DNA of 64,000 nucleotides, from the NCBI RefSeq assembly GCF_015207035.1, contig NZ_JADEXQ010000003.1, positions 1 through 64,000 of the forward strand, written 5' to 3'. A model generated the notes under the pieces. That model was not told the origin of the DNA and searched no databases. It was given only the letters and a program-made list of their open reading frames with translations. A program made the translations under genes and the position numbers. Below, piece after piece: positions 29,421 through 40,829 of the stretch. Origin of the DNA: Romeriopsis navalis LEGE 11480 (GTDB lineage: Bacteria; Cyanobacteriota; Cyanobacteriia; Leptolyngbyales; Leptolyngbyaceae). Each line of letters begins with the position of its first letter. The first letter of the stretch is position 1.

Positions 29421-29584
29421 GTTTTACATAAACGATCGGGCAAGTCCGCCAGTTCTTGTTTTAGGTTGGGTGACAGATTTGCAGCTTTTACATGAGTTAT
29501 TCAGTTTTACATAAGCGATCGGGCAAGTCCGCCAGTTCTTGTTTGAGGTCGGGTGACGGGTTTTCGGCTTTAAATAATTCGGTC
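29421..29584 (-). repeat. imperfect tandem duplication of about 82 bp over a gene end
   Basis: The block 29503-29584, the 3' end of the secreted CHAT partner gene, is repeated at 29421-29502. The core CGATCGGGCAAGTCCGCCAG is identical. Read on the minus strand, the outer copy would encode LKQELADLPDRLCKTSAS and a separate stop, matching the LKQELADLPDRLCKTE end of the live gene. Confidence 0.85.
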
Positions 29585-30204
29585 AGACCATCCGCACCAA
29601 GACCGGCTTGTTGATAAATTTCGGCCCGCTGCTTTAGGGTTGCCTCATCTTTACCGGGTAGTGCCTTGAGTTGCTGATTAATCGCGGCGCGTTCCTCGCT
29701 CGGTAGGACGCTAAAGGTGGCGGCCGCAATGTCGAGGGGGCCACGATACATCACCCATTCATAGGATCCGCCAGGCATAAGTGGGATGCCGTTGTAGCGT
29801 GTTCGCTGAATCATGCTGGCTTGGACAAGTTTCCAACGTTTGGTTTGGGCCGGCATTGTGCGCCGCCAAAATGGCCGGGTTTCGCCGAGGCGCCGTAACC
29901 CGATTGCACTTGCGTTACCGCGCCAAATTAAAGTTGGGTATAAACTTGCCACCCGGTTGCGGACAGACGGTAACGGTGATGGATTCATGGAAATAATGCA
30001 GGCATTCCCACTGCGTGACCCCCCGGATCGGCGCTTGGGCCCGAAAATTTTCATAATGTCGCCCCATGATAGGCCGCGACTTATTTGAAAAGACTGGCGT
30101 TGTGGGGGGTGGGCTGTGGCGACTGTGGGTAAACCCGTCAGACTGAGGCCCAGGCTGGTGATGAGTACTGAACGGGTGAGCCAAGTTGAGTGATCGCGCT
30201 TCAT
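29497..30204 (-). CDS. secreted protein of a CHAT locus (DUF928-like)
   Basis: 235 aa. A signal peptide is clear (basic start, SVLITSLGLSLTGLPTVATA, cleavage after about residue 31). The mature part has a Cys after a Gly/Ser-rich stretch (GGSRSGNACII), then LYPTLIWRGNAS, LMPGGSYEWVMYRG, and FSVLPSEERAAINQQL. These resemble the secreted proteins of the DUF928 type that accompany CHAT/CHASE2 genes in cyanobacteria, although the match is partial. The gene lies 127 bases downstream of the CHAT-CHASE2 receptor on the same strand. The C-terminus has been altered by a tandem duplication. Confidence 0.7.
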   Translation of the reverse strand: MKRDHSTWLTRSVLITSLGLSLTGLPTVATAHPPQRQSFQISRGLSWGDIMKIFGPKRRSGGSRSGNACIISMNPSPLPSVRNRVASLYPTLIWRGNASAIGLRRLGETRPFWRRTMPAQTKRWKLVQASMIQRTRYNGIPLMPGGSYEWVMYRGPLDIAAATFSVLPSEERAAINQQLKALPGKDEATLKQRAEIYQQAGLGADGLTELFKAENPSPDLKQELADLPDRLCKTE

Positions 30205-30331: not shown

Positions 30332-32737
30332 TTATTTCACAAGATAAAGCCAAAATACTGCTGAGGGTAGCAAGATTGGGAGTAGCAGTCCTGATGAGAT
30401 ATACAACTGTAATGCGGCAATTCCGTACAAACCGTTTGCACTACTGCTACCTAAGACCCAATGTCGTCGTCGAATGTTGCGGCGTTTAAGATATTGGGCT
30501 GTACCTTGCCCGACGATCGCCGCCAGTCCCATCATCCACAAATCCGGCACGGGTATCACCTGTCGTTGATGCAGAAAGTGATGAATCATATAGGCATGGG
30601 CCTCGGCGCCGGTAAAAATCGGATTGGCCTTAGCCCCCCCCCAATACCGCAGCGCGAGGGGCAAACTAAAATTATCCTCACCCAGTTGGCTAATGCCTGC
30701 TTGTTTATAACCGCCGGGGGCAATTAAGACGATTGGCGGCACGGGTTGGCGATCGGGGCGTTTGCCATCGAGCAGTGCCCCGGCGCTAATTTTTTGGTAT
30801 GCCTGAGAGGGGGGAATCGAATAGTCGAGAATCGGCCGCAGCCATAATTGGCCGAAATTTTCGACGATCGCGCTAAGCGGGGTGAGTCTTGTCTTGAGCA
30901 ATGGTTGGAGATTTTCCAAGGGGGGATCGGCCTGTTCAATATGGCGCAGAATTTGGTCACGGGCGTTCGTTTTGCTGTTGAGGTTCGGGTGAAACGGTTG
31001 GGGACTGCGCTGCAATTGGCCGGTGAGGGCCAGCAGATAACCAAATGGACAAGTTTCGTAGCATGATTGGCTCGGCGCTAATAGCTCGGTATAGTTCACA
31101 TAAATTCCGATATGCCCTTGGATTGTCCAATTCGGATTAGCGATGCTGGGGACGGCCCCGATTTCACGGCCATTTGATTTACTGTTGGCGGCAAAGAGTA
31201 ACCATTGGCCTTGCTGCGTTGCGGCTTTGACGGATTGACTGAGTGTGGCATCTTCGTTTGTGGGCCGATCGAGTAAGAAGTCAATGCCAATGACTTTTGG
31301 CTTTAAAGTTTGCGCTTTGTCGATGACTTGGGCGAGATAGGTCCGATCGATCGGGTTGATCTTCCGGGCATCCAGGCCGCGAATAGAGTCTTCGTCCACC
31401 TGTACCAATAGAACATCCGGTGACTGACTGGGAATTTGCCGGGTGAGATGACGATAGATCGCTTGGGCGGCAATCCGCGGTTCTAAAATCAGGTTTTGTA
31501 GCGGTGGTAATAAGCTGACGGCTGCGAGACCCGCTAAGATCCAGGCTTGGCGACGATTTGGCAGCCAGGGCTTGATCCAATGCCCGAAGCCCTGTGGTTG
31601 TAATTGAAACGGTTCCGCTTCGGGGTGACGAAATAGTGAAGGAATTAGGTAAGCGGATGGATAAGTTAGATTGCGATCGACTTTGAGAAATTTACAAGCC
31701 CGAAGCATTGCGGTGTGGACATCGCAATATTCACTTAAATGCTGTAGGAATCGCAGTAAAAATTCCTGAGCGACACGATTGTGAATCGGTTCGCGCATGA
31801 TTGCGACTTGACTTAAGCCTAAGTCAACCAAAGAATTGGCAATACTTAGACCACTACAGGAATTGAAAATTGCAAATTGTAAGCCATGATCACGGGCTTT
31901 AATCAGGTGTGGTGCAATTTCTTGGACCAGAATCGAGACGCCCGGCGCAATGGTCAGTTCGCCGCCGGTAATCGATGTTTCGTTGCTATGTCCGGCAAAG
32001 AACAGAATGTCCCAGCCGCGTTCATCCGCAATGGCTTGGGCGATTTCTTCTTTGAGGTTTTGGGTATCTTTACCGGCTTGCCAGCCGACAAATTCGATCG
32101 TCGCCACATTCGAGAGTGACTGTACGGCTTGTTTATCCGTCTGGAAGTCAAGGCCCGTATCATCACCCAGGATCGCAAGAATCCGCAGCTTACTGCCTGT
32201 GCGCCGTTGGTTCGCCTTTTTGCGCAAATTCGCCGGTGTACGGGCAATCCGAATAATCCGGTTGCTACCAAATTCGGTGCCGATTTCCCAGGCTTCCCAG
32301 GGGAAACGGGCTAGCTCCATCGGTTCGCAAGTGAGGCAAACTTCGATCGCGCGTGAACGATCAGTGGCTTCAAAGTTGGGGTCTTCAATCGCGGATGGGA
32401 CGATCGCGGCCTTGGCGATTTGAGAGCGAATACCCAGCAATTCTGCGCTATTGAGCCAAAAGTAAAACTCGGAGAGAAATCGGGCTTCGGCTTGAACTAG
32501 CTGTGCCCGCCAATCGATCGATGGTGAAGTAATGCCACCGCTACCCTGAACTCTGGCCCGCAGTGCATAGCTGTAGAAATTGATATAGGCATTTTGCCAA
32601 GCATGATACAGCGTTGTGAGACTTTCTGGATAAGCAAGCTGTGCCGTGATCTGGAGTCCGGCTTCCCAGGAAAGTTCAAAGATGCAAGTCTGCTCGACGC
32701 GCCAGATTTTGAGCCGGAAATCAGTCATGGACCGCAA
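30332..32737 (-). CDS. CHAT-CHASE2 membrane receptor with caspase-like domain
   Basis: 801 aa. The cytoplasmic N-terminal CHAT domain (to about residue 370) has a caspase/separase-type dyad: His250 in LFFAGHSNE and Cys294 in FNSCSGLS. A membrane segment follows (AWILAGLAAVSLLPPL), then an extracytoplasmic CHASE2 sensor (VLLVQVDEDSIRGLD, KVIGIDFLLDRP, PPIVLIAPGG). Three membrane segments close the C-terminus. This is a receptor layout in which an external signal could control a protease-like domain. The usual kinase or cyclase output of CHASE2 is absent. The substrate is unknown. Its likely partner is the secreted protein just downstream. Start at 32737 or 32728. Confidence 0.88.
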   Translation of the reverse strand: MRSMTDFRLKIWRVEQTCIFELSWEAGLQITAQLAYPESLTTLYHAWQNAYINFYSYALRARVQGSGGITSPSIDWRAQLVQAEARFLSEFYFWLNSAELLGIRSQIAKAAIVPSAIEDPNFEATDRSRAIEVCLTCEPMELARFPWEAWEIGTEFGSNRIIRIARTPANLRKKANQRRTGSKLRILAILGDDTGLDFQTDKQAVQSLSNVATIEFVGWQAGKDTQNLKEEIAQAIADERGWDILFFAGHSNETSITGGELTIAPGVSILVQEIAPHLIKARDHGLQFAIFNSCSGLSIANSLVDLGLSQVAIMREPIHNRVAQEFLLRFLQHLSEYCDVHTAMLRACKFLKVDRNLTYPSAYLIPSLFRHPEAEPFQLQPQGFGHWIKPWLPNRRQAWILAGLAAVSLLPPLQNLILEPRIAAQAIYRHLTRQIPSQSPDVLLVQVDEDSIRGLDARKINPIDRTYLAQVIDKAQTLKPKVIGIDFLLDRPTNEDATLSQSVKAATQQGQWLLFAANSKSNGREIGAVPSIANPNWTIQGHIGIYVNYTELLAPSQSCYETCPFGYLLALTGQLQRSPQPFHPNLNSKTNARDQILRHIEQADPPLENLQPLLKTRLTPLSAIVENFGQLWLRPILDYSIPPSQAYQKISAGALLDGKRPDRQPVPPIVLIAPGGYKQAGISQLGEDNFSLPLALRYWGGAKANPIFTGAEAHAYMIHHFLHQRQVIPVPDLWMMGLAAIVGQGTAQYLKRRNIRRRHWVLGSSSANGLYGIAALQLYISSGLLLPILLPSAVFWLYLVK

Positions 32738-32865
32738 AGCAAAAGATGAGCGTAACCGTACATAACTTCCTTAACCACTTGAGGCAAGAGCTTATGCAGC
32801 TCCTCTTAGCATACCCAGCTTTGCGATATGTGGATGGAAAATTGGCATGAACCGCCCATCGCTGA

Positions 32866-32907
32866 TCAAAAATAGCAGCTACCCTATGATCTGAAGGCAG
32901 CTGCTAT
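32866..32907 (-). terminator. lrtA terminator
   Basis: ATAGCAGCT and AGCTGCTAT form a perfect 9-bp stem; on the minus strand it is followed by TTTTT. It lies about 55 bases past the lrtA stop. Confidence 0.75.
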
Positions 32908-36729: not shown

Positions 36730-36875
36730 CATGGGAAGATTATTGCATTAGATTACGGAATTTTCGCTGACTGACTGGCTTGGATGTGGTTGCGATAGAT
36801 TGATCTAATGTAGCGATGCTACTGGATAGTTTGTGGTTACCCGTTGTTATTTGTGCTCGGTGCTCATGGTGCAAG

Positions 36876-39800
36876 ATGAGTGATGTTTTTATTTCTTATT
36901 CACGGCAAGATCGGGATTTTGCGCGGCGGTTACATGGGGCGATCGAAGCGGATGGGCGTGAAGTCTGGATTGATTGGCAGAATATTGAACCGACGCTAAA
37001 TTGGTGGCAGGAAATTAAGCAGGGGATTGAAGAGGCCGATACCTTTGTGTTTGTGCTGTCACCGGACTCGGTGGCGTCGAAGGTTTGTCGGGATGAGATT
37101 GAGCACTCGCTACGACATAATAAGCGCCTGGTGCCGATCGTTTATCGTGAAGGGTTTGAGCTGGATCAAACGACGAATGATGCGCATCGCGCGTTGGGTT
37201 CACATAATTGGCTGCTGTTTCGGGCGGCGGATGATTTTGAGCGATCGTTTGCGGAGTTGGTGCGGGCGATCGAGACAGATTTTATGCATGTGAAGGTGCA
37301 TACCCGGTTGCTAAATCGAGCGCTAGAGTGGGAGCGGCAGGGGCGGCGGGATAGTTTCCTGCTGCGGGGGGAGGATCTGAGTGCGGCGGAGCAGTGGTTA
37401 GCTGATGCAGTATCGAAGCAGCCCCAGGCGACGGATGAACACCATAACTATATTGAGACGAGTCGGGAAGAAGAAACGGCACAGTCAACACGCGATCGAT
37501 TGCTAGTGGAAGCGCGGGAGGTAGCGGAGCAACAGCTGGTGGTGGCGCAGGAGGAGGCCGATGCGAAGCTGGATGCTGCTACGCGGCAGGCGAATCGGCG
37601 GAATCGGCGCAGTTTGATCGGGGCGGGTTTGGCGATTGTTGGTTTGGCAGTGGCGGTACCCAGTTCGATTTATGCCAAAAATGAGGCAAGTGATGCCAAA
37701 AATGAGGCAAGAGAAGCAGCGGCAGACAAACAGAAAGCAGACAAACAGAAAGCTGAATTAGCAAAGGAAAGTGAAAAATTAAACCAGAATTTACAGAAAA
37801 CTAAAGCAAAAGAGGATGAAGCACAGAAGAAAGCGTTACTTGCCCAGCAGCAGTACCGTCAGGCTCAGAAACAGCAACAAGCCGCAGCGAGTCAGGCTAA
37901 GCACGCCCTACGACAATCGCAAGCGGCACAGCAGCAGGCGCAGTTATCGCGACAGCGCTCTCAAGCAGCATCACGAGAGTTAGCCCAGGTCAATCAGGAA
38001 AAACAAGTGGCGATCGTCGCAAAGCGATCGGCAGAGCAAGCGCAAGCGCAAGCCGCGAAACAGTTGAAATCATCTCAACAACAGCGGCAGCAGGCACAAG
38101 CACAAGCGAACGAGGCGAAGTTAGCCCAGGCTGAAGCTCAGACCGCAAGGGATATTGCGCGTCAGGTCACGACTCTAGAACAGCGAGGTAATCGTTTATT
38201 ACGCGCTGATAACCATGGCACGAGCGATAAATTAGTTAGCGCTCTAGAGTTAGCTCATGAGGTTAAAGGCTTGCTGCATAAGGGGGCAGCCTGGGGTAAA
38301 ACGATGGCGACTCCTATGCTTGCATTAAGATTTCTCGTTAATTCAACGGTTCAAAAGGCCGAATTTCAGGGGGACTTAGATGGATTTCGTTCCGCTACTG
38401 ATCGGCGTTGGTTTAGTCCCGACAGTCAGTATATAGTCACATATGATTCAAAGAATAAGCTGAGTCGTCTGTATGATCTCAATGGTGATCAAAAGGCTCA
38501 ATTTGAAGGGACCTTCAAGTTCTTTAGTCCCAGTAGTCAGTATATATTTATATATGATTCAGAGAATGATTTGATCCGTTGGTATGATCTCAATGGCAAT
38601 CAAGAGTCTCAACTTCCGCGAGACTACTATGTTTTGTTCAGCCCTGATAATCAGCATATAGTTTCATATGGTTCCGATCAACGCCTGAGTCATTTGTCTG
38701 ACTTAAATGGCAATCGGAAAACTGCATTTGAGGGAGTCATTGAGTCATTCAGTCCCAATGGTAAGTACGTGATTACACGTGTCTACCGTAGAAGTTCGGG
38801 GAGTATACTTCGGTTATATGACCTAAACGGCAATAAACTGAATGAATTCGAGGGAAAATTCGGTGATTTCAGCCCCGATAGCCAGCATGTATTGACTATC
38901 ACTGATAAAACTGATGAGACAATTCGGGTCTATAACCTCAGTAATAATTCCCCCATTGCACAATTTCCAGGTGCGACTGCTGGTTTTAGTGCTAGTGGAC
39001 AGTATGTGGTGACGGGCTATAACAGAATGATTCAGCTTTATAACCTACGTGGTGTTCTATCGGCTGAGTTTCCAGGGCGTTATGCTCAGTTTAGCGCTGA
39101 TGGTAAGCATTTGCTGATTAATGATGACCTCAGTGCTTACGGTGATCGAGTCAAGAGTAAAGACGAGTTAGAGCGTGATGTTCCAGTACAATCAAATGAT
39201 AGGCGTACGGCTCGGCTTTACGATATTAGTCGTGAGGTACTAGCCCAATCTCGTGGTAGAAAACTGGCCGAATTCCAGGGCGATCAGGCTCGCTATACCC
39301 AAGATAGTAAGCGCGTTTTAACTGTAAATAATAGTTTAGTACGCTCGTATGATTTCAATGGTGATATCCTATCGGAATACCAAGGTAAATTCAGGGCGTT
39401 TAGTCCTGATAATCAGTATGTGGTTACCAATTTTGGTGATGTAAACCTGTTATATGATTCTGATGGAAACAAATTAGCAGAGTATCGAGGACAATTTGTC
39501 GGTTTTAGTCCTGATAGTAGTCATTTGTTAATTAAAGATGGTCTGATTCGTCTGCATTATTTAAATGCTCATAAATTAGAGATTTCATTCCGAAACCGGA
39601 CAGCCTTCAGTGCTAAACCGAAGTATGTGTTTGCGCAGAATAGTTATTTATTTGCACAGAATAGCTCCACAAGTTGGCTATACAATCTGAACGGCAAGAA
39701 ACTATTCAAAGTCAAAGGTATTAATGCGTCGATAAGTCCTAATGGTAAGCATATTATGACTTATGGCGATAAAAAAATGCGTTTTTATGATGCTAGCGGC

Positions 39801-40829
39801 CAGTCAGTGGTGAGATTTAGAGAACGCTTGAGTTCTAATATTCCAAACAATAATCCTATATGGCTAAGATCCCAAATTAATCATCAATATAGCTGGCAAA
39901 TTATCAAGCCTGTAGGGACAAGATCGCGTTTTACCAGAGATGGTAATCACTTGCTCATTTTTGGGGACAGGATAAGTCGTGTATATAAGGTTTATCCCGA
40001 AAAAATTAGCCCTATGTTTGATGCGTACGGTGATTTAGTGGATTTCAGTCCTGATGGTAATTTATTTCTGACATATACTGATCACCTAACGCGTTCTTCC
40101 CTATATAGTTTTTCGGGAAATAAGCTAGGAATTCTGCCAGGCTCATTCCCGCAATTCAGTCCTGACAGTAATCACGTTCTGACAGAGGTTAGTACGCTTG
40201 AGGGGCAAATGAGCTGGTTGTATGATCGGGCAGGACGTTATCTAGTTGGCTTTGAAGGTTCATCTGCACAATTCAGCCCTGACGGAAAATATCTGTTGAC
40301 GTCTAAGGAGGAAAAAAGTTGGCTATATAATATATCAGGAGAACGGTTGGTTGAATTTACAGGCAAATCTCCCCAATTTAGTGCCGACGGAAAGTATGTT
40401 TTGACATCTAAGGGCAAGAAACATTGGCTGCATAATTTGTCAGGAAAGCGGTTGGCTGAATTTACAGGCACGTCACCTCAATTCAGTCCTTCTCATAAAC
40501 TAATGCTAATTACTGTTCCTGATGAAAATCGTACTCGTCTCTATAATTTTGAAGGTAAATTGTTGGCTGAGTATTTGGGATTTACAGACGTGGAAAATAA
40601 AAATATTTTATTTTTAGGCACTACAAAATTTGACATGCGCAGCCTTGGATTCTCCCAAGATGGTACCAAAATTATCACTCTAACTGGTGATGAAAAACTT
40701 TTAATCTGGCCTGTTGATGATGGCTTAACTGATGATTATGGAATCACGGATTTGATTAATCGAGGTTGTGCAAAGTTGAAAAACTTCCGGCATCGGCAGG
40801 ATGTCTTGAAAGTGTGCCCGGAGAAGTGA
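36876..40829 (+). CDS. TIR - membrane - coiled-coil - degenerate beta-propeller protein
   Basis: 1317 aa from the ATG at 36876 (MSDVFISYSRQDRDFARRL); 20 earlier codons are open but unlikely. Residues 1-150 are a TIR domain with VFISYSRQD, WIDWQNIEP and Glu74 in KVCRDEIEHS, which aligns with the catalytic Glu of NAD-cleaving TIRs such as SARM1. A linker (TRLLNRALEWERQGRRD) known from cyanobacterial TIR/WD40 proteins follows. One membrane helix lies near 246-267 and a Gln/Ala/Lys coiled coil at 268-430. From about 490 to 1285 come roughly 19 repeats of the type LYDLNGNKLAEFxGxFxxFSPDSQYVLT-like (35-38 residues). These are WD40-related but lack the usual His and Trp-Asp. The C-terminal INRGCAKLKNF...VLKVCP is a common WD40-protein end. 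The propeller DNA is more AT-rich than its surroundings. Stand-alone. Confidence 0.88.
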   Translation: MSDVFISYSRQDRDFARRLHGAIEADGREVWIDWQNIEPTLNWWQEIKQGIEEADTFVFVLSPDSVASKVCRDEIEHSLRHNKRLVPIVYREGFELDQTTNDAHRALGSHNWLLFRAADDFERSFAELVRAIETDFMHVKVHTRLLNRALEWERQGRRDSFLLRGEDLSAAEQWLADAVSKQPQATDEHHNYIETSREEETAQSTRDRLLVEAREVAEQQLVVAQEEADAKLDAATRQANRRNRRSLIGAGLAIVGLAVAVPSSIYAKNEASDAKNEAREAAADKQKADKQKAELAKESEKLNQNLQKTKAKEDEAQKKALLAQQQYRQAQKQQQAAASQAKHALRQSQAAQQQAQLSRQRSQAASRELAQVNQEKQVAIVAKRSAEQAQAQAAKQLKSSQQQRQQAQAQANEAKLAQAEAQTARDIARQVTTLEQRGNRLLRADNHGTSDKLVSALELAHEVKGLLHKGAAWGKTMATPMLALRFLVNSTVQKAEFQGDLDGFRSATDRRWFSPDSQYIVTYDSKNKLSRLYDLNGDQKAQFEGTFKFFSPSSQYIFIYDSENDLIRWYDLNGNQESQLPRDYYVLFSPDNQHIVSYGSDQRLSHLSDLNGNRKTAFEGVIESFSPNGKYVITRVYRRSSGSILRLYDLNGNKLNEFEGKFGDFSPDSQHVLTITDKTDETIRVYNLSNNSPIAQFPGATAGFSASGQYVVTGYNRMIQLYNLRGVLSAEFPGRYAQFSADGKHLLINDDLSAYGDRVKSKDELERDVPVQSNDRRTARLYDISREVLAQSRGRKLAEFQGDQARYTQDSKRVLTVNNSLVRSYDFNGDILSEYQGKFRAFSPDNQYVVTNFGDVNLLYDSDGNKLAEYRGQFVGFSPDSSHLLIKDGLIRLHYLNAHKLEISFRNRTAFSAKPKYVFAQNSYLFAQNSSTSWLYNLNGKKLFKVKGINASISPNGKHIMTYGDKKMRFYDASGQSVVRFRERLSSNIPNNNPIWLRSQINHQYSWQIIKPVGTRSRFTRDGNHLLIFGDRISRVYKVYPEKISPMFDAYGDLVDFSPDGNLFLTYTDHLTRSSLYSFSGNKLGILPGSFPQFSPDSNHVLTEVSTLEGQMSWLYDRAGRYLVGFEGSSAQFSPDGKYLLTSKEEKSWLYNISGERLVEFTGKSPQFSADGKYVLTSKGKKHWLHNLSGKRLAEFTGTSPQFSPSHKLMLITVPDENRTRLYNFEGKLLAEYLGFTDVENKNILFLGTTKFDMRSLGFSQDGTKIITLTGDEKLLIWPVDDGLTDDYGITDLINRGCAKLKNFRHRQDVLKVCPEK
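38412..38640 (+). repeat. near-identical tandem units inside the propeller gene (N-terminal blades)
   Basis: Units starting at 38412, 38523 and about 38637 are spaced 111 and 114 bases and share stretches such as AGTCAGTATATA and TATGATCTCAATGG. They encode FSPDSQYI, FSPSSQYI and FSPDNQHI blades. Confidence 0.7.
40272..40590 (+). repeat. 105-bp in-frame tandem units inside the propeller gene (C-terminal blades)
   Basis: Starts at 40272, 40377 and 40482 are exactly 105 bases (35 codons) apart and share GTTGG(T/C)TGAATTTACAGGC. They encode QFSPDGKYLLTSK, QFSADGKYVLTSK and QFSPSHKLM. Confidence 0.75.

Follow-up and report, generated by a model that had tools for sequence, protein, structure and literature searches.

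A cyanobacterial CHAT-CHASE2 membrane protein as a candidate sensor-protease linked to a divergent sigma-like factor

Introduction

Filamentous cyanobacteria are rich in caspase-like proteins, for which cell death has mostly been guessed to be the natural output. What could such a domain control when it is joined, in a single polypeptide, to an extracytoplasmic sensor? This question is raised by a gene of Romeriopsis navalis LEGE 11480 located in the first 64,000 nucleotides of contig NZ_JADEXQ010000003.1, the whole stretch of DNA analysed here and hereafter called the window. An earlier note on this DNA had proposed that an external signal may switch a protease, as a possible cell-death or stress switch. 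Here we examine the architecture of the protein, its relatives, its conserved genetic partners and a promoter-like motif associated with one of them.

Gene, domains and topology

The open reading frame at 30332-32737 on the minus strand is genuine and conserved, as judged from sequence checks and homologue searches. Translation almost certainly starts at the ATG at 32728 and not at the TTG at 32737 proposed earlier, because the N-terminus then aligns with those of the orthologues (MTDFRLKIW/MSTFRLKIW). The dyad reported in the earlier note as His250/Cys294 was correctly recognised but counted from the TTG, and becomes His247/Cys291. The features of the gene are as follows.

30332..32728, minus strand: CHAT-CHASE2 gene (predicted sensor-protease), 798 amino acids, ATG at 32728; TTG start of the earlier reader at 32737
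32399..32728, minus strand: N-terminal alpha+beta domain, residues 1-110, three strands then three helices (AlphaFold)
31613..32362, minus strand: CHAT caspase-like domain, residues 123-372 (Pfam and fold search)
31988..31990, minus strand: codon of the predicted catalytic His247 (FFAGHSNE)
31856..31858, minus strand: codon of the predicted catalytic Cys291 (FNSCSGL)
31481..31546, minus strand: first transmembrane segment, residues about 395-416 (hydropathy and charge pattern)
30515..31459, minus strand: CHASE2 extracytoplasmic sensor domain, residues 424-738 (PF05226)
30338..30544, minus strand: C-terminal transmembrane helices, residues about 729-797, with a basic cytoplasmic loop at 746-757

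The Pfam scan of the protein matched only CHAT and CHASE2; there was no match to PF00656 (Peptidase_C14) or to TPR. CHASE2 scored 64.8 bits against a cut-off of 26.3 and covers profile positions 21-249 of 257 (residues 427-741 if numbered from the TTG). CHAT (PF12770) reached 19.9 bits in this protein alone, under the Pfam cut-off of 24. Both domains were matched in 58 of 58 scanned family members, with a best CHAT E-value of 7e-13, so that the fusion of a CHASE2 sensor to a preceding CHAT domain is confirmed. By position and description, residues 1-110 are a candidate counterpart of the EACC2 domain of Kaur et al. 2021 (PMC8195603). CHAT is placed inside the cell and CHASE2 outside because of hydropathy and the positive-inside charge pattern over 58 homologues: lysines plus arginines average 3.2 before the first transmembrane segment versus 0.7 after it, and 3.3 in the loop between the second and third segments.

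The genome encodes 19 CHASE2 proteins: four CHAT-CHASE2, one TIR-CHASE2, two AAA_35-CHASE2, and the remainder with a kinase, cyclase or GGDEF output or with CHASE2 alone. The statement that CHASE2 is mostly paired with kinase or cyclase outputs thus holds only roughly, since 7 of the 19 join CHAT, TIR or AAA_35. The TIR and AAA_35 fusions, on contigs C77, C10 and C50 (loci L079, L083 and L076), illustrate other N-terminal effectors.

Catalytic dyad and predicted fold

His247 and Cys291 are invariant in the 20 close homologues, in 81 of 81 sequences that include 80 GTDB loci, and in 18 of 18 distant CHAT-CHASE2 paralogues from relatives. When the PDB was searched by sequence, neither the single protein nor the 58-member profile gave a convincing relative, and a comparison of folds was therefore required. 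The matches of residues 29-100 to the alpha-hemoglobin stabilizing protein were weak, look like chance and were discarded. The AlphaFold model of the sensor, built with 58 sequences, has a mean pLDDT of 90. Its best Foldseek matches in the PDB were Csx29/TPR-CHAT (E 7e-9), human separase and the SAVED-CHAT filament, followed lower down by gingipain and then caspases. The transmembrane anti-sigma factor DdvA (PDB 8rot) also matches, at E 1.4e-5, a match not localised to a given domain. A viral fold library yielded two significant matches, the best being a phage protein named transmembrane sensor domain. Two observations that the earlier note had set as contrary to its reading, loss of the dyad in close homologues and lack of a caspase fold, were not seen; the predicted fold is that of CHAT, separase and caspases. 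Topology, dyad and fold agree on an extracytoplasmic sensor fused to a caspase-fold domain that lies in the cytoplasm and retains its dyad.

From the dyad and the fold we infer that the CHAT domain is proteolytic. It could also serve as a signalling scaffold, binding one of the partner proteins described below (DUF1822 or a sigma-like protein) without cutting it, with a non-proteolytic dyad. The divergent CHAT sequence, below the Pfam cut-off when taken alone, and a CHAT substrate represented by candidates only, namely these same two proteins, would both fit such a role. However, the histidine, the cysteine and the flanking GHS and SCxG are near-invariant in all the homologues checked, a degree of conservation not usually seen when an enzyme is dead, and we regard a scaffold as very improbable.

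A conserved operon, split in R. navalis

About 20 close homologues were found in relatives, with 35-61% identity, and GTDB genomes contain at least 567 relatives of the sensor. All 80 GTDB loci kept for analysis bear cyanobacterial names. A search for conserved neighbours of CHAT-CHASE2 genes, as had been suggested, was productive. The conserved order in relatives is a sigma-like gene (family c3), a DUF1822 gene, CHAT-CHASE2 and an exported DUF928-family gene. DUF1822 lies immediately upstream of CHAT-CHASE2 in 60 of the 80 loci, c3 precedes that DUF1822 gene in 51, and the DUF928-like gene follows CHAT-CHASE2 in about 60; the strict four-gene order is found at 39 loci. Over these 39 operons, divergence of CHAT-CHASE2 correlates with that of c3 (rho 0.72), DUF1822 (rho 0.68) and the DUF928-like protein (rho 0.58), each with a Mantel p of 0.001 that ignores phylogeny, and part of this correlation must be due to shared ancestry. 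The c3 family is present in 14 of 14 relatives with this CHAT-CHASE2 subfamily versus 2 of 25 without it (Fisher p 8e-9, phylogeny likewise ignored). It is also found elsewhere in the genome in all 14 genomes whose retrieved CHAT-CHASE2 locus has no c3 alongside.

The c3 proteins, of about 460 residues, have nothing convincing in Pfam for sigma regions 2 and 4 (1 of 37 members, E 0.015). Canonical CHAT-CHASE2 operons of the same and related genomes have a similar composition, i.e. a gene with Sigma70 regions 2 and 4, DUF1822, CHAT-CHASE2 and DUF928. The canonical sigma-like family bearing Sigma70_r2/r4 aligns with c3 by hhalign at 98.7% (E 4e-16, 314 columns). The c3 family escapes Pfam through its divergence and is picked up by comparing profiles. 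In a fold search with c3, the two best matches were sigma subunits, at non-significant E-values of 0.12 and 0.52. The downstream partner is likewise a divergent member of its family: by hhalign, the family of the gene at 29497-30204 aligns with canonical DUF928 at 97.2% (E 4.6e-11), and PF06051 is matched by 18 of its 27 members.

The surroundings of the sensor gene in the window contain the following elements.

29497..30204, minus strand: divergent DUF928-family exported protein, the conserved downstream partner (signal peptide by eye)
32868..32907, minus strand: terminator-like hairpin and T-run after the HPF gene (read from sequence, unscored)
32772..32798, minus strand: weak copy of the motif described below, CTGCATAAGCT, with a poor -10 half, 70 nt before the sensor ATG

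The upstream neighbour is the HPF gene, and because a terminator-like hairpin and T-run follow it, transcription of the sensor gene probably starts from a separate promoter. A DUF1822 remnant was looked for upstream of the sensor gene and none was seen. The matching c3/DUF1822 pair of this genome is located on another contig (C23:55796-58263), and its closest relatives belong to operons whose CHAT-CHASE2 ranks among the nearest to that of the window. Since the operon is split in this strain, the sensor and its partners would act in trans. An intact paralogous operon is found on contig C136.

Other elements of the window deserve mention. A 12-codon open reading frame, MYGYAHLLLCGP, at 32727-32765 on the minus strand, has a stop that overlaps the sensor ATG (ATGA); it is possibly a leader peptide, or a chance occurrence. 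Just past the stop of the DUF928-like gene, the 3' end of that gene recurs, at about 29425-29560 on the minus strand (NPSPDLKQELADLPDRLCKT, with small changes). Further away, at 36816-40829 on the plus strand, lies a gene for a 1337-residue TIR protein with WD40-like repeats, which PADLOC matched weakly to defence proteins of the TIR type.

The conserved neighbourhood also brings to mind the conflict systems described by Kaur et al. 2021, in which an invader would be sensed, the constant caspase domain would process itself and effectors would follow, the sigma factor being one output among others. The excerpts of that paper show the same anatomy and neighbours. The same genome also has DUF1822-linked CHAT proteins carrying NACHT or periplasmic-binding domains, and some family members are on plasmids (L170 and L184). 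On the other hand, a TRADD-N gene was not seen at the window locus and the sensor protein had no PADLOC match. As the principal function, immunity seems unlikely to us; it overlaps with the explanation preferred below rather than excluding it. In several Nostocales loci (L116-L119, L124, L126 and L184), CHAT-CHASE2 is preceded by a gene for a large exported protein, which in the two loci scanned (L116 and L119) proved to be a TPR-CHAT.

A promoter-like motif and its gene set

The upstream regions of c3 genes have a common motif, AAAAcTGCATAAGtT-spacer-AGAAaTAtA. In half-split tests it was present in 49% of held-out c3 upstream regions, at a score that only 1% of shuffles attained. No enrichment was seen before DUF1822 (5 of 95) or DUF928-like genes (0 of 81). 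A search allowing one mismatch gave about background in most genomes, and exact matches alone were therefore taken as evidence of specificity. Among 39 relatives, exact matches to TGCATARG-N12-AGAANTA were present in 6 of 16 with c3 versus 0 of 23 without, and 45 sites versus 0 for a reversed control pattern were counted in 11 c3-bearing genomes. All 52 distinct exact sites are outside long open reading frames, although such sequence makes up only 28.8% of the total (p 7e-29), and in 49 of 52 a start on the same strand lies within 350 nt, at a median of 52 nt.

The genes behind the motif include c3 itself, exported TPR-CHAT proteins, TPS adhesins, HisKA_3 kinases, one Peptidase_C14 caspase, a subtilase, a trypsin-like protease and a CAP protein, among others. 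The proteins encoded behind the motif more often begin with a signal- or membrane-type N-terminus (19 of 43 versus 20 of 104, p 0.004), as judged by a crude criterion based on hydropathy. At three loci (L217, L205 and L260) the motif was seen by eye just upstream of small proteins with a leader-like start, ELSxEELDxxSGG, resembling peptide precursors.

Because the motif is weak in the organism of the window, the evidence for this gene set comes mainly from Calothrix and other Nostocales. The genome of R. navalis has two exact sites, one upstream of an exported DUF5991 protein (contig C146) and one with no gene nearby (contig C11), and a single one-mismatch site upstream of an exported protein (contig C25). 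The copy before the sensor gene scores 8.3 bits (p=0.014 versus shuffles) and is only suggestive as a sigma-linked promoter of that gene. Detached CHAT-CHASE2 genes at two other loci, L111 and L115, have clear sites of 12.4 and 22.0 bits.

Which factor would read this motif? It could belong to another regulator, e.g. a HisKA_3 two-component system, with the sigma-like gene as merely one of its targets. The HisKA_3 kinase genes behind the motif and the lack of a clear Pfam sigma match in c3 are in line with this possibility. However, the motif consists of -35/-10-like halves at fixed spacing and at a short distance from starts, and no relative lacking the sigma-like gene had an exact site. It is moreover not enriched before canonical sigma (c5) genes (1 of 10). 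A regulator other than c3 is thus, in our opinion, improbable.

The same gene list bears on cell death, in which a signal would cause CHAT to cut many cell proteins and kill the cell. The intact dyad and the caspase/separase/CHAT fold are compatible with it, TPR-CHAT proteins and a caspase figure among the motif-linked genes, and comparable models have been published for membrane-bound orthocaspases (PMC7475262). However, the conserved partners are sigma-like and exported DUF928-family genes, not toxins, and the nearest solved relatives, Csx29 and separase, cleave specific substrates. Direct killing consequently appears quite unlikely. A transcriptional output is favoured since the neighbours are sigma-like, DUF1822 and DUF928-family genes and the motif precedes many exported proteins. 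The idea of a protease switched by an external signal is therefore kept as far as sensor, dyad and fold are concerned, without cell death as the first choice; of the two switches proposed in the earlier note, neighbours and motif indicate a transcriptional (stress or conflict) output instead of death.

Proposed mechanism

We can propose the following sequence of events. The N-terminal alpha+beta domain and CHAT would be cytoplasmic and linked by a single crossing to CHASE2 outside, with membrane helices at the C-terminus. An extracytoplasmic signal, which the exported partner of the DUF928 family may present, would alter CHASE2 and thereby activate the CHAT protease. By analogy with Csx29/Csx30 and CalpL/CalpT, the protease would probably act on DUF1822 or on c3 itself and set free a dedicated sigma-like factor. 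From TGCATAAG-N12-AGAAATA promoters, this factor could then transcribe the operon that encodes it as well as a regulon in which exported proteins are prominent. The regulon would comprise TPR-CHAT proteins, TPS adhesins, trypsin, subtilase and caspase proteases, CAP and small peptide precursors.

This reading, with a transmembrane receptor and protease in one chain that frees a sigma-like factor for such a regulon, is in our view somewhat better than an even bet. The wider proposal, in which a large non-CRISPR family of cyanobacterial transmembrane CHAT proteases relays an outside signal by freeing a dedicated, hitherto unrecognised sigma-like factor that has a promoter sequence of its own, and so induces exported proteins, proteases and additional CHAT proteins, is more tentative, with chances slightly short of even. 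If true, it would constitute a one-protein receptor-protease counterpart of regulated anti-sigma proteolysis. Operon, co-occurrence, co-divergence and promoter-like motif tie one CHAT family to a transcriptional output, and the analysis yields candidate partners by name, a putative promoter sequence and a list of genes open to testing in cultured Calothrix strains.

Comparison with known systems

Direct literature searches for CHAT joined to CHASE2 gave nothing useful. The protein is nevertheless a member of an already described architecture, given the EACC2-caspase proteins of Kaur et al. 2021 (eLife) and the papers on Peptidase_C14-CHASE2 fusions. The excerpts of the former describe, as in the window protein, an N-terminal alpha+beta domain, a caspase-like domain and a variable C-terminus that may be CHASE2, with activation proposed to be by autopeptidase. 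They also report ECF sigma and DUF1822 neighbours, which are matched in relatives and, in the genome of the window, in trans only, on contig C23. Fusions of Peptidase_C14 to CHASE2 were reported in 2010 and 2012 (PMC2853523, PMC3501461). The metacaspase-CHASE2 protein of Trichodesmium likewise has a cytoplasmic caspase-fold domain before CHASE2, with flanking transmembrane helices, but its catalytic domain is classed as a metacaspase (Peptidase_C14) whereas that of the window protein matches CHAT.

Other relevant systems are proteases that control sigma factors. Csx29, the TPR-CHAT protease of Craspase, which works with Csx30 and CASP-sigma, cleaves Csx30, an inhibitor of an ECF-like sigma factor (PMC10028731). 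It shares the His/Cys dyad and is the best structural match to the sensor. In contrast to the transmembrane sensor, which has CHASE2 and no TPR match, Csx29 is soluble, contains TPR and is switched on by RNA-bound Cas7-11. In the CalpL/CalpT/CalpS system, the Lon-type protease CalpL cuts the anti-sigma factor CalpT (PMC11417357). Together with SAVED-CHAT, it provides a signal-activated protease comparable to the proposed sensor, but these systems sense nucleotide second messengers and are CRISPR-linked. DdvA, whose structure also matched the sensor model, is a membrane protein controlling an ECF sigma factor (PMC4374960).

Relative to these systems, the divergent sigma-like branch, the DUF928-family partner, the motif-linked gene set and the split operon are new: they are absent from the EACC2 account as excerpted, which likewise has no promoter motif, and were not found in the literature searched, which included few subscription journals. 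The control of sigma factors by CHAT proteases, described for the CRISPR-linked Craspase, would thus be widened to envelope sensing.
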